From a virus, in the IMG/VR virus record IMGVR_UViG_3300043466_000202, positions 1-22,399 of that record: a stretch of DNA of 22,399 nucleotides. One strand, 5' to 3'. The notes beneath the pieces were generated by a model. The model searched no databases. It saw nothing but the letters and a program-made list of their open reading frames with translations, and was not told the origin of the DNA. A program made the translations under genes and the position numbers. Shown one piece after another: positions 12,406 to 22,399 of the stretch (position 1 is the first letter of the stretch; every line of letters starts with the position of its first letter).

Positions 12406-16662
<4,257 letters not shown>

Positions 16663-16703
16663 GTATTTGTAACCCTTCGTGTATTGATTAAATTATAAAA
16701 CTA

Positions 16704-16985
16704 TTATTGCATAATATTCAGAATTGCTTCTGACTTAGCACACTCTACGATTTCAGTCTTTAGCAAGTTAGTTACTTGATCAAACTGTTGTAGAACTGCA
16801 AGACGAGCAAGTCTATCCATTGGACATTGACGGGCTGCTTCTTGTGCCTCAATGTTCTTAAGGTGAATCAAGTCTGCATCCCAATTACCGTCAAGTGTTG
16901 CAAGCAACGCCTCATAAACAGTAATGTTTGCCTTATAAGAGTCTACCTCTAATTGGCGAATCTGTTTTGCTGTTAGTTCTGTCAT
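16704..16985 (-). CDS. small helical protein, possible fibre accessory or chaperone
   Basis: 93 residues beginning MTELTAKQIRQLEVDSYKAN. Almost wholly helical by composition, with heptad-like spacing of Leu, Ile and Val, and two Cys (QCPMD and VECAK). No membrane segment or known motif. It lies between the propeller and the giant fibre, has a good ribosome binding site (AAAGGAG), and small helical genes beside fibre genes are often assembly chaperones; that role is inference. I do not recognise a family. Confidence 0.6.
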   Translation of the reverse strand: MTELTAKQIRQLEVDSYKANITVYEALLATLDGNWDADLIHLKNIEAQEAARQCPMDRLARLAVLQQFDQVTNLLKTEIVECAKSEAILNIMQ

Positions 16986-17000
16986 TTTATTACTCCTTTG

Positions 17001-18014
17001 TTATCCAAATACCACATCATTTATTGTACCACTAGGAAGAGTGCTTGGGCTAGTATATCTAGTTCCAAAACCTACTCCACTAGTCCAAGGGTAAGCAGAT
17101 ACGAATGGTGAAGAACTGTGCCCAACTGCTATTGTATCTCCTGTACGGCTAAATGCTACACTTGTTCCATTTCCCGCAGGAACGGTTGCTGGATTAGAGT
17201 ATTTTGTTCCAAATCCTGTTCCTGAAGTCCAAGGATAAGCAGTTATAGCAGGTGAAGAAGTATGAGCAACTGCAATGTCTAGTCCTGAACTACTAAACTT
17301 TACTTGTTGAGCACTGTTAGTAGGTGTTGTTCCTGGGTTAGAATACTTAGTTCCAAAACCATTTGACCAAGAATAAACAGTAATATAAGGACCAGTTGAC
17401 ACATTACTAAGTGCAATATCATTTCCTGAAGGACTAAAACTCACTGATGTTGTTGTATTGGATGGTAGCGTTGCTGGATTAGAATATCTTGTTCCAAATC
17501 CCGTTGAATTATTCCAGGCAAAAGCCTGAACATAAGGACTATTAACATCAACAGAAACTATAGCATCTTCTGAAGGAGACCAAGTTATATGATTTGAAAT
17601 AAACTCAGGAAGTACTGGATCTGTATATTTTGTACCAAAGCCAGTAGACGACCAAGCATAGACAGATGATCCTATAGCAAGAACTTTACCTGATGGAGAA
17701 AACTGAGTTCCTACATCTCCTGTGCTTGGCATAACTGCTGGATCTGCATACTTTGTTCTAAAATTTGAACCAGTTGGAGGCCATGGATAAACTGCTATTC
17801 CAGTATCTGCCACATAAGATAAGGCAGAGTTTGATGGATTAATTGAAACACCAAATGTTTGAACTGATCCTGGACGATTTCCTGATGCTGCAATGTAACG
17901 AGTTCCAAAGCCTGCAGATGTAAAATCATAAGCACTTGCTTGAGGATTACCTGCAACAGCAATATATTGCCTTCTAGTCTCAGTAATGCCTAATGCCATT
18001 GCAGAAAAAGTCAT
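17001..18014 (-). CDS. seven-bladed beta-propeller tail protein
   Basis: 337 residues from ATG 18014 (MTFSAMALGITETRRQYIAV), two bases after the collagen-like gene's stop; the open frame extends to 18065 without a good site, and a further ATG lies at 17999. Seven repeats each close with a phrase of the type GFGTKYSNP (one is NFRTKY). A full blade reads V-x-FSPSG-xx-IAV-xxxSSP-xxx-AYPW-TS-x-GFGT(K/R)Y. The protein starts partway through a blade and ends with one strand, TINDVVFG, that completes it, the usual closure of WD-type propellers. Placement among fibre genes suggests a receptor- or glycan-binding or capping role (inference). Catalytic residues are not evident. Confidence 0.78.
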   Translation of the reverse strand: MTFSAMALGITETRRQYIAVAGNPQASAYDFTSAGFGTRYIAASGNRPGSVQTFGVSINPSNSALSYVADTGIAVYPWPPTGSNFRTKYADPAVMPSTGDVGTQFSPSGKVLAIGSSVYAWSSTGFGTKYTDPVLPEFISNHITWSPSEDAIVSVDVNSPYVQAFAWNNSTGFGTRYSNPATLPSNTTTSVSFSPSGNDIALSNVSTGPYITVYSWSNGFGTKYSNPGTTPTNSAQQVKFSSSGLDIAVAHTSSPAITAYPWTSGTGFGTKYSNPATVPAGNGTSVAFSRTGDTIAVGHSSSPFVSAYPWTSGVGFGTRYTSPSTLPSGTINDVVFG

Positions 18015-18016
18015 GA

Positions 18017-18976
18017 TTAGGTTAAACCTGGTCCTGAGATTACATATTCGTTTGTTCCAACACATAGAACTGTTGCTAATCCACGCTGTGGGATTATTCT
18101 ATTACCAGTTCCTGATGTCCCCGCAAATCTTAGAGTAACTCCTGACTCAGTAACCGTCTGTGTTACACCAGAATTGTTGTATATAACAAAATTTTGTCCT
18201 GCAGTCATAGCAGTTGCAGCATTAATTGTTACTCCACCAGTTGTAATATCAATAAACTTTCCATTATCACTAGCGACTACTGTATATGCAGATGATTGTG
18301 CATTTTCAGGAAGCGTTGCTGGTCCCGTTGCTCCTGTGGCACCAGTTACTCCTGCAGGTCCTGTTGCTCCTGATGGGCCTGTGGCTCCTGTAACTCCTTG
18401 AGGACCAGTTGCACCTGTTGTGCCTACGCCAGTTGGTCCTGTTGCACCAACTTCTCCCTGAATTCCTTGAGGCCCTGTGGCACCAGTTGTGCCAACTCCT
18501 GTAGGACCCGTAACACCTGTAACTCCAGTGACTCCTGTAGCACCTACTGGACCTGTAGCACCTGTGGTGCCTGCACCTGTAGGTCCTTCTGGACCAGTTG
18601 CACCAGTAACGCCTGTTGGTCCTGCGGGACCTGTGGCTCCTGTTGTGCCTGCACCTGCTGGACCACTTGGTCCTGTAGCACCAGTTGTACCAATTCCCGT
18701 AGGTCCTGTTGGACCTGTAACTCCTGTTGCACCTGCTGGTCCTGTGGCTCCTGTTGAGCCTACACCAGTAGCACCTGTTACTCCTGTTGGTCCTGTTGGA
18801 CCAGTTGCACCTGTCGCTCCTGTGGTGCCAATGCCTGCAGGTCCTGTTGCACCTGTGGCTCCTGTAGCACCTGTTGGACCACCTGCAGGGCCAGAAGCAC
18901 CTGGAGGCCCTTGCGGACCAGGTGAAGAAACTATAACGGAATTTGGATCTGAATCATCAACAATATTATTAGGCAT
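18017..18976 (-). CDS. collagen-like tail fibre
   Basis: 319 residues. An N-terminal lead of about 16 residues enters SPGPQGPPG, as in the giant fibre, so the two may share an anchor. Gly-X-Y triplets run to about residue 218 with units [16 protein letters not shown] and GVTGATG. The C-terminal 100 residues form a separate beta domain: [20 protein letters not shown], then [20 protein letters not shown], then [20 protein letters not shown]. This domain is common at the tips of phage fibres and appendages. Its start overlaps the BppU-like gene's end by eight bases, suggesting coupled translation. Confidence 0.85.
18321..18927 (-). repeat. collagen-like repeat region of the shorter fibre
   Basis: Gly-X-Y triplets between the SPGPQGPPG lead and the LPEN junction with the C-terminal beta domain. 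[10 protein letters not shown] and [10 protein letters not shown]-type units recur about every 24-36 residues. Confidence 0.9.
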
Positions 18977-19319
18977 CTTGTGTCACCTGAGCATTTACAG
19001 TAATTTGACCTTGAATAACTCTTTCAATAACTCCTGAATTAATAAGTTCTAAATCATAAAGATAGAATCCAGAACCAAGAGCACCTGTCTGTTCATCTGT
19101 CATAGTAATCAAGATGTTACCTGTCAATGGTGTAATTGTAAGACCACCATTGCTTGTTGTTAAAGTTAATTCAGCAACAGATGAGAACTTACGACGCAAT
19201 TGCATACGACCAGTTTGTCCTGTTAGATTTATAGGAGTCCCGTTTGGATTCTGATAAACAAGATTTAAAGTAAGAACTGCCCCTTGATCTAAAGTAAAAT
19301 TGTATATGCCTGCAGTCAT
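18969..19319 (-). CDS. BppU-like N-terminal domain protein, putative fibre adaptor
   Basis: 116 residues beginning [20 protein letters not shown]. It has the order seen in BppU-type baseplate upper proteins and related adaptor domains: [20 protein letters not shown], then [17 protein letters not shown], a central [18 protein letters not shown], then [20 protein letters not shown] and a last strand. In those phages the domain links fibres to the tail baseplate. Here it comes directly before a collagen-like fibre with an eight-base overlap. The ATG follows AAGGAAT and lies one base after the stop of the 49-residue gene. Confidence 0.65.
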
Positions 19320-20998: not shown

Positions 20999-21802
20999 CT
21001 ATCCCTTGAATGCTAACGAGAGCCTGTCCTTATCAAAATCTATTTCTATGATCTCTACAACTATGTCATGGCCAATGGTAAATTGCTCAGGAGTCCATGT
21101 GCCCATCTTAGATTTGTGTACTAAACCAGAAAGAAGACCAAGTGAGACGAAGACACCAAAGTTATTAATACCTGAAACTCTACCTGTATATGCCTGGCCA
21201 ATTTGTAGTTGGCTAAACTGCATCATCTTGTCTTCTTTTTGTTCTTGCTCAATGATGGCCTTTCGTGAGATAACTACATTGCCCTTTTCTCTATCAAACT
21301 GAATTACCTTGGCCTCAATTGTTTGGCCAACATAGCGAGAGAAGTCTTCTGACTTATCAATGAAAGATTGTGATGAAGGCAAGAAGGCTCTAATGCCAAT
21401 GTCTACAATCATTCCACCCTTAACCAACTTAGTGATCTCACCATAGACTACATTATTGTCAGAATGGAAGATAGCCTCTACCTGATTCCAGATAGCCTCT
21501 ACTTCTGCTTCCTTCATAGAAAGAATGTACTGACCTTCTGAGTCAATACTTATAACACTGGCATCAATGACTTGACCAATTGAGACAACCTCATGGATAT
21601 CAATAGTGCGTCTTGCAGATACTTCCTTCTTTGGGATAAAGGCTTCAGTCTTACAGCCAATATCAAGAAGGACTCCTTCACGATCTATCTGTACTACTGT
21701 GCCCTTGACTGCATCTCCAACATTATATGTTTTCATGGATTCGTCAATTGCCTTTAGGAAGTCTTCTAAAGACCCTATGTCGTTAATTGCTACTTGATTC
21801 AT
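20999..21802 (-). CDS. phage-encoded ribosomal protein S1-like protein (three S1 domains)
   Basis: 267 residues. After a short lead (SLEDFLKAIDESMKTYNVGD) there are three S1 (OB-fold) RNA-binding domains: about 28-98 (VKGTVVQIDREGVLLDIGCK, ending YILSMKEAE), about 116-187 (LVKGGMIVDIGIRAFLPSS, ending NVVISRKAIIEQ), and about 201-267 (GRVSGINNFGVFVSLGLLSG, LVHKSKM). Order and phrases follow bacterial S1, most like actinobacterial S1 as I know it, minus its fourth domain. The first two domains are those that hold S1 on the 30S subunit and the third binds mRNA, so it may dock on host ribosomes and favour phage mRNA. The start overlaps the small terminase end by 20 bases and has AAGGGG. Other roles, such as RNA protection, are possible. 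Confidence 0.9.
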   Translation of the reverse strand: MNQVAINDIGSLEDFLKAIDESMKTYNVGDAVKGTVVQIDREGVLLDIGCKTEAFIPKKEVSARRTIDIHEVVSIGQVIDASVISIDSEGQYILSMKEAEVEAIWNQVEAIFHSDNNVVYGEITKLVKGGMIVDIGIRAFLPSSQSFIDKSEDFSRYVGQTIEAKVIQFDREKGNVVISRKAIIEQEQKEDKMMQFSQLQIGQAYTGRVSGINNFGVFVSLGLLSGLVHKSKMGTWTPEQFTIGHDIVVEIIEIDFDKDRLSLAFKG

Positions 21803-22298
21803 TTTTTGCCCCTTGTGTTATGTCTTCTGCAAATACTATTCTAGCACGATTCTCACGCTTCTCCAGTAATTTATCAATTGAAGTTGCTGCTCGTACTTCT
21901 GCTACACCTAAGCGAGATCTTGAAACTGGATCAAAACCCAGTGAGGTCAGAGCATCTGTGTATGCCTTGTTAATAGCCACATAAGCCTTAGCATCTGCAG
22001 GCTCTGTGGAAATCATATAACGGTCTCTTGCTGCTTCATTAGCATCAGCCAAATGTGATGCATTTTTGACTGACTCAATATCACTAACAGGACTAAGCCA
22101 AGTAATGGCTACACCCCATGCACGATTCCATAAATCTAATCCAGACTCTTTGAGATTTTCTGGTGGTGCTGGTATTTCTCTTGCCATAGGCAAATGCGTA
22201 ATCACATTTAGATCAGGCAAAGGGTGATTTCCAGGATTTCCCAGTAATCGTTTTAGTTCATTTGGCTTTGGAGGTCGTCCTGCCGTTGGTTGAGCCAT
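21783..22298 (-). CDS. terminase small subunit, P27 family
   Basis: 171 residues, starting MAQPTAGRPPKPNELKRLLG, with NPGNHPLPD following. The GRPPKP...KRLxGNPG opening is the signature of P27-type small terminases. These recognise the packaging site and regulate the large subunit. The remainder is helical, with LWNRAWGVAITWLSPVSDIE in the middle and SRSRLGVAEVRA near the C-terminus, as usual for the family. ATG 22298 follows AAAAGGAA at about 8-9 bases. It is the first clear gene of the cluster in this window, and the large subunit follows after the S1 insertion. Confidence 0.9.
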   Translation of the reverse strand: MAQPTAGRPPKPNELKRLLGNPGNHPLPDLNVITHLPMAREIPAPPENLKESGLDLWNRAWGVAITWLSPVSDIESVKNASHLADANEAARDRYMISTEPADAKAYVAINKAYTDALTSLGFDPVSRSRLGVAEVRAATSIDKLLEKRENRARIVFAEDITQGAKNESSSN

Positions 22299-22385: not shown

Positions 22386-22391
22386 ATTATA
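22386..22391 (-). promoter_or_regulatory. possible -10 promoter element upstream of the small terminase
   Basis: TATAAT on the minus strand, preceded directly by TG. The -35 region would lie beyond the window edge, so it cannot be judged. It is about 88 bases before the small terminase ATG, a reasonable place for a late promoter. AT-rich DNA makes chance matches common. Confidence 0.35.
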
Positions 22392-22399
22392 CAGAAAGG

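Follow-up and report, generated by a model that had tools for sequence, protein, structure and literature searches.

Why a small phage should keep part of a ribosomal protein gene, and keep it between the two genes of its terminase, is the question raised by the IMG/VR virus record IMGVR_UViG_3300043466_000202. The window analysed here is the whole of that one 22,399-bp record (positions 1-22,399). The original prediction described the gene as a truncated S1 of actinobacterial type, and we examined its architecture, distribution, origin and likely function.

The S1 gene and its neighbours

Leftwards from its right end, the window carries terS (22298-21783), S1 (21802-20999, ATG start) and terL (20996-19479), all on the minus strand. 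The small terminase has 171 aa (phrog_83, E 2.9e-11) and its gene overlaps the start of S1 by 20 bp, whereas terL lies 2 bp downstream of S1 and encodes a large terminase of 505 aa (PF03354, E 3.8e-25; PF20441, E 7.3e-20; phrog_9, E 3.4e-112). The gene had been described as embedded with overlaps in the packaging operon. Its position between terS and terL stands, but in the window it overlaps terS only. Among the relatives, S1 and terL are mostly spaced by +2, -1 or -14 bp, and S1 overlaps terS mostly by 20 or 17 bp. The 20-bp overlap and the 2-bp gap suggest that translation of the three genes is probably coupled, and late expression of S1 is presumed from the position of the gene. TerS carries a C-terminal tail of about 19 aa here (21786-21842, minus strand), which in alignments is present only in the S1-bearing relatives; it is about 18-35 aa long and mostly acidic among them and absent from the S1-less relatives compared, and its final 7 residues come from the S1 start, read there in another frame. 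Tail-fibre-like genes lie between terL and the portal gene (12406-19319, minus strand), including an L-shaped tail fibre assembly match, a collagen-like fibre and a 1418-aa ORF, whereas in the Pontimonas phage phiPsal1 the portal follows terL with one small ORF between.

The 267-aa product contains an N-terminal anchor helix and S1 domains 1-3, as indicated by Pfam, alignment to structure chains, Foldseek and a survey of lengths. Pfam PF00575 matched three stretches of it (E 2.7e-40). Its closest solved relative was the bS1 of Mycobacterium smegmatis (PDB 8wi7, E 2.4e-75), with residues 3-266 aligned to residues 10-277 of the chain, and E. coli bS1 came second (E 2.5e-48). The NCBIfam model of actinobacterial rpsA, NF005911, was matched at E 9e-79 over positions 9-277 of 486. 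The protein thus begins like host S1 and ends with domain 3. Its 265 bits lie under the model cut-off of 691, and it has three domains in 267 aa where the full actinobacterial set has four domains and a C-terminal tail. Three domains in host order followed by a stop had been predicted, and this is what the alignment gave, from end to end of actinobacterial domains 1-3 and with domain 4 and the tail absent; judged by these matches, the protein is a truncated derivative of bS1 and not a full bS1. Host S1 proteins have about 440-550 aa, compared to 266-267 aa in the phages, and share 45-49% identity with the phage protein, whose domain 3 has lost 4 residues from the beta3-beta4 loop. The AlphaFold model had a mean pLDDT of 82.5 and a pTM of 0.50, so the orientation of the domains in it is loose. 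Its best Foldseek matches were bS1 in 30S-TEC and 30S mRNA-delivery complexes (E about 5e-22, top TM 0.73). No PHROGs family was found for the protein.

Distribution and origin of the gene

The gene was found in at least 99 distinct IMG/VR contigs, counted over the tables of our IMG/VR scans, down to about 50% identity. We collected 105 locus records, in which some contigs are counted twice; 100 showed the strict terS-S1-terL order, 4 were cut by contig ends and one (L037) had an extra gene between terS and S1. Full-length copies were nearly uniform: 68 of 122 had 266 aa, 52 had 267 aa, and the remaining two had 258 and 264 aa. In a scan of IMG/VR with TerL, S1 was present at 69-96% TerL identity wherever the junction was visible, whereas relatives at 55-65% identity had terS directly beside terL and no S1 at the junction; in the isolate phiPsal1 the two terminase genes overlap directly. 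The survey suggested with the original prediction therefore revealed a fixed, clade-wide trait wherever the junction could be seen. A profile search for S1 elsewhere in eight S1-less IMG/VR records (20-34 kb) and phiPsal1 found none, an empty answer that is weak for this kind of search. Most simply, the gene was inserted once, long ago, between terS and terL and then retained in a clade of about 33-kb phages. That these are bona fide viral genomes is evident from the terminase genes flanking every examined locus with a visible junction and from the apparently complete genome G003. Prophage relatives were sought in 84,980 genomes, and the best 80 matches were all host-like rpsA at 45-48% identity. 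Among 21 deposited phage records with S1-like matches, of which three were annotated and the others were not read in detail, no terS-S1-terL arrangement was seen. No tRNA genes were found in five long genomes of the S1-bearing clade.

Extra genes occur at this end of the genome in other members of the group as well. The ORF inserted in L037 (601-1377, plus strand) encodes 258 aa and matches Methyltransf_24 (PF13578) below the threshold (24.6 of 26.3 bits), and its start, MKQVANE, repeats the S1 start, MKQVAIND, as if the junction had been duplicated on insertion with the terS overlap kept. S1-less relatives (L231 71-1213, L246 73-1398 and similar) often have an ORF of 380-441 aa immediately upstream of terS. 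The terminus-terminase region seems to be a place for extra genes in the wider group. Elsewhere in G003 (L192 10708-12622, minus strand), PHROG matches to 2OG-Fe(II) oxygenases have a nucleotide-sugar epimerase and a glycosyltransferase nearby, hinting at modification of the surface or of DNA.

In a tree of 29 phage copies and 30 actinobacterial S1 proteins, the phage copies formed one clade (100/100) on a stem of 1.42 changes per site, and the maximum likelihood tree placed this clade inside the Nanopelagicales (95/100). The actinobacterial type that had been predicted is borne out by this nesting within actinobacterial rpsA as well as by the M. smegmatis match, and bS1 was the best match throughout, ahead of other OB-fold proteins. 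Three nearly fixed phage residues, I19, Q38 and F256, agree with the Nanopelagicales and differ from most other actinobacteria in the sample. Neither the Microbacteriaceae (p 0.25) nor the outgroup and deeper actinobacteria (p 0.32) were rejected as donor by AU tests, so the tree safely points to an actinobacterium, with the Nanopelagicales as our best guess. The G+C content is 39-42% in the S1-bearing genomes and 42-50% in fragments of two Nanopelagicales genomes. The actinophage marker whiB was absent from the nine S1-bearing records searched, and our view of the host does not rest on it. Given the tree placement, the S1-bearing phages are apparently freshwater phages; the Nanopelagicales are an abundant freshwater order (PMC10202952), and with the best tree donor in such an order, the effect of the phage protein may be ecologically common.

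The gene is under purifying selection, though it evolves faster than the terminases: the median dN/dS in the same phages was 0.18 for S1 (134 pairs), 0.135 for TerS and 0.064 for TerL. With this ratio, the best match to residues 10-277 of an actinobacterial bS1 and the same gene in at least 99 other contigs, the S1 ORF is confirmed as real, well beyond chance; the truncation is real and fixed as well, with 120 of 122 full copies at 266-267 aa.

Contact residues and possible functions

The residues by which S1 is seated on the ribosome can be located by alignment. In E. coli bS1, F5 and F9 stack on F32 of uS2 (PMC4288201); with D39, G41 and K43 they form the set of residues stacking on uS2 or bridging to it, G41 being a contact in Q-beta replicase (PMC4288201, PMC10123108). 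F5 and F9 correspond to F15 and I19 in the N-terminal segment and anchor helix of the phage protein (aa 1-25; 21728-21802, minus strand), and D39, G41 and K43 to D47, G49 and K51 in domain 1 (aa 26-97; 21512-21727, minus strand). In domain 2 (aa 116-181; 21260-21457, minus strand), K128 and F140 are the counterparts of K117 and F130 in the mRNA pocket of E. coli OB2 (PMC10123108). Among 62 distinct phage proteins, F15, D47 and K51 were conserved in 100%, I19 in 98%, and G49 was invariant or conserved in 98%; I19 sits at the position of E. coli F9, and isoleucine is found there in the Nanopelagicales too. K128 and F140 were invariant, and the third pocket residue was M, L or F. Domain 3 (aa 200-267; 21002-21205, minus strand) contains F/Y215, F218, H229, D255 and R260, which we take to be the RNA-binding set of the S1 fold. 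The last four were invariant in the 62 proteins, and position 215 was F in 71% of them and Y in three divergent sequences of the alignment A1.

The 13 contact sites tested came from the literature on how E. coli bS1 or the S1 fold touches uS2 or RNA, and they were picked with the alignment already in view. Of these sites, 11 were at least 98% conserved, compared to 54 of all 267 positions (p 5e-7). When only host-conserved sites were considered, the contrast was 10 of 12 against 49 of 183 (p 4e-5). G49 and some other sites may be conserved for structural reasons. On the host side, uS2 of four Nanopelagicales genomes, our candidate hosts, retains the corresponding aromatic (KRF/YIF) and the acidic DTN..GNDDAIR pocket. 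The original prediction held that the domains seating S1 on the 30S subunit are kept, and named the lack of S2-contact and RNA-binding residues as evidence against it; both the anchor residues and most of the domain 3 RNA-binding residues proved to be conserved. Retention of these residues by selection suggests that the virus steers host ribosomes with its S1.

We therefore consider it reasonably probable that the phage supplies a minimal bS1, which would dock on the host 30S subunit and load phage mRNAs or aid their translation. The gene would have been taken once from an actinobacterial host, the best maximum likelihood placement being among Nanopelagicales rpsA genes, and reduced to domains 1-3. 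Coupled translation of the terS-S1-terL operon would yield the protein, which would dock on uS2 through its N-terminal helix and domain 1, replacing host S1 or occupying subunits without it, while domains 2 and 3 would hold the 5' leader of the mRNA at the exit channel and melt its structure. As a result, initiation on phage mRNAs may improve during the production of capsid and packaging proteins. We favour a working protein because the conserved residues predict 30S docking and one canonical RNA-binding domain, and because E. coli S1 domains 1-3 alone, the minimal functional core, retain 30S binding, mRNA binding and docking, and unfolding (Duval et al., PMC3858243). On the other hand, the S1-less sister phages manage without it.

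Substitution for weak ribosome-binding sites does not seem to explain the gene. Huge phages with rpS1 rarely have Shine-Dalgarno sites (PMC7162821). We looked for a similar loss in the S1-bearing phages, by first-ATG duplex energy with rough ORF picking, and did not find it: with this crude gene caller, the energy was -4.87 kcal/mol in S1-bearing phages, -4.58 in S1-less relatives and -3.54 in host fragments. The sites were as strong as in the S1-less relatives (p 0.35), which speaks against Shine-Dalgarno loss as the reason for S1, and stronger than in the tested Nanopelagicales fragments (p 3e-5). The phage S1 thus does not seem to replace Shine-Dalgarno recognition, and an obvious class of mRNA needing S1 is missing.

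These strong sites bear on the main rival, a dominant-negative S1. S1 is involved in tmRNA rescue in other bacteria. The phage protein would take the uS2 site, exclude the four-domain host S1 and lower both host translation and tmRNA rescue, while phage mRNAs with good Shine-Dalgarno sites would escape. The advantage of the phage sites over the host fragments is expected if ribosomes poor in S1 favour the phage, but the S1-less relatives have similarly strong sites. This reading accounts for the loss of domain 4 and the tail in all full copies, with the anchor as the best-kept part, but not for the strict conservation of the RNA-binding residues in domain 3, for which a simple plug would have no use. 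Moreover, domains 1-3 are functional and not poisonous in E. coli (PMC3858243), and the gene lies in the packaging operon, not in an early region. We regard such an inhibitor as possible but unlikely.

With an identity of 45-49%, a long stem and a shortened loop in domain 3, the phage protein could have changed its partner. A wide range of RNA-binding proteins work with S1 domains (PMC6375957), and a protein working off the ribosome, which protected or marked phage transcripts or modulated an RNase, would also keep its domain 3 RNA-binding residues; its uS2 anchor, however, could drift freely, yet the residues there are invariant, and we think this improbable. Still less probable is a partner of the terminase, in which S1 would bind TerS, TerL or a packaging RNA in the way that Q-beta replicase has borrowed S1 domains 1-3. 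The same face of S1 is used by the replicase (PMC4288201), S1 always lies between terS and terL, and the extra acidic TerS tail accompanies it. However, conservation of the uS2-facing residues is a prediction of ribosome docking, close relatives package their DNA by similar terminases without any S1, and the end of the TerS tail is a by-product of the overlap with S1. Gene order is generally conserved in phages, so the location says little, and in L037 another gene separates terS from S1. For the role in the packaging complex offered in the original prediction we found no support. A metagenomic chimera or a functionless host fragment under drift, conceivable because viral ribosomal-protein calls can stem from contamination (PMC3877843), is refuted by the conserved synteny of at least 99 contigs (where visible) and the dN/dS of about 0.18, and a scan of IMG/VR with actinobacterial S1 patterns for contamination or independent captures gave only six loci, five of them in the S1-bearing clade and the sixth (L347) with 41% identity to host-type S1.

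If the phage S1 does work on the host ribosome, the genome ends may bear on its dose. A conserved block, TTTACCCTGGCTGCCC/CTTTCTGTATAAT, lies about 100 bp before terS, and many contigs, including the window itself, terminate inside it. Twenty-six locus records, some from one contig, begin 101-102 bp before the terS ATG, and both ends of the 32,847-bp record G003 fall in the block. Such ends are expected of cohesive ends, and we consider the block a putative cos-like site (window 22386-22399; L023 4385-4413; L192 1-20). It contains TATAAT (22386-22391, minus strand), a -10-like element of a putative terS-S1-terL promoter, with a -35-like TTTACC 17 bp upstream in longer relatives, beyond the end of the window. 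The pair straddles the end break, so that the operon might have a whole promoter only where the ends are joined, in circular or concatemeric DNA. It matched 10 of 12 positions, two promoter-like sites were found compared to 1.0 in shuffled sequences, and the -35 half varies between relatives. One may speculate, with considerable doubt, that a natural bS1 of domains 1-3, fixed in a small-phage clade, is swapped into host ribosomes in the late phase, its dose tied to the terminase in two ways, through coupled translation and through a promoter that is split between the two cohesive ends, -35 on one and -10 on the other, and becomes whole only on circular or concatemeric DNA.

Comparison with known systems

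Ribosomal proteins of phages are known mostly as bS21 and bL12, and one survey set S1 aside because its orthology was doubtful (PMC6375957). Viral S1 is known in huge phages and in the jumbo cyanophage PhiMa05 (PMC7162821, PMC13157829), and bS21 genes of phages were reported to share regions with those for TerL, capsid and portal and to be expressed late (PMC9723584). Each element has thus been described separately: ribosomal proteins in phages, S1 in phages, and a ribosomal protein gene close to a phage terminase (PMC6375957, PMC7162821, PMC13157829, PMC9723584). The placement within the terminase cassette, which the original prediction considered the unusual part, is less isolated than it seemed in view of bS21 (PMC9723584), but S1 between terS and terL was not found reported in the open-licence literature. 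What appears to be new is that a truncated S1 of clear orthology has become fixed, within the terminase pair, throughout a clade of small phages.

Of the systems compared, phage bS21 resembles the present case as a translation-initiation ribosomal protein beside late packaging and structural genes, for which late ribosome takeover was proposed; it differs in being an unrelated protein, encoded on the opposite strand and outside the terS-terL interval, in large phages of Bacteroidetes (PMC9723584). phiPsal1 (MG835450) and the S1-less IMG/VR relatives share a related TerL (44-65%) and the terS-terL order, but their terS abuts terL and S1 was not found in the nine records searched. An S1 encoded by the phage is shared with jumbo and huge phages (PhiMa05 rpsA, PMC13157829; rpS1, PMC7162821; BFVD models). 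The S1 of PhiMa05 and the BFVD models (the latter about 373-385 aa, 18-23% identity) are longer and divergent, and the orthology that is doubtful for the S1-like proteins of huge phages is clear here. PhiMa05 rpsA adjoins other ribosomal-protein genes (PMC13157829), whereas the S1 described here adjoins terS and terL, and the rpS1 of huge phages is tied to missing Shine-Dalgarno sites (PMC7162821), which are present here.

The nearest relative is actinobacterial bS1 itself (NF005911/PRK07899; M. smegmatis bS1, 8wi7), to which the N-terminal segment and domains 1-3 are homologous from end to end, with the uS2 anchor and most RNA-binding residues shared; the phage gene lacks domain 4 and the C-terminal tail, has a domain 3 loop 4 residues shorter and is 45-49% identical. 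The same set of domains is found in the E. coli S1 fragment of domains 1-3 (a laboratory deletion of domains 4-6, and the S1 fragment of Q-beta replicase, 4q7j), which was shown to bind the 30S subunit and to unfold mRNA there (PMC3858243). That fragment is a laboratory construct or a borrowed host protein, whereas here it is a natural phage gene. What remains in the phage is the fragment sufficient for S1 activity on the 30S subunit in E. coli; with its clear orthology and its fixation in a clade of about 33-kb phages, this makes S1-mediated change of ribosomes by phages testable with one small protein.
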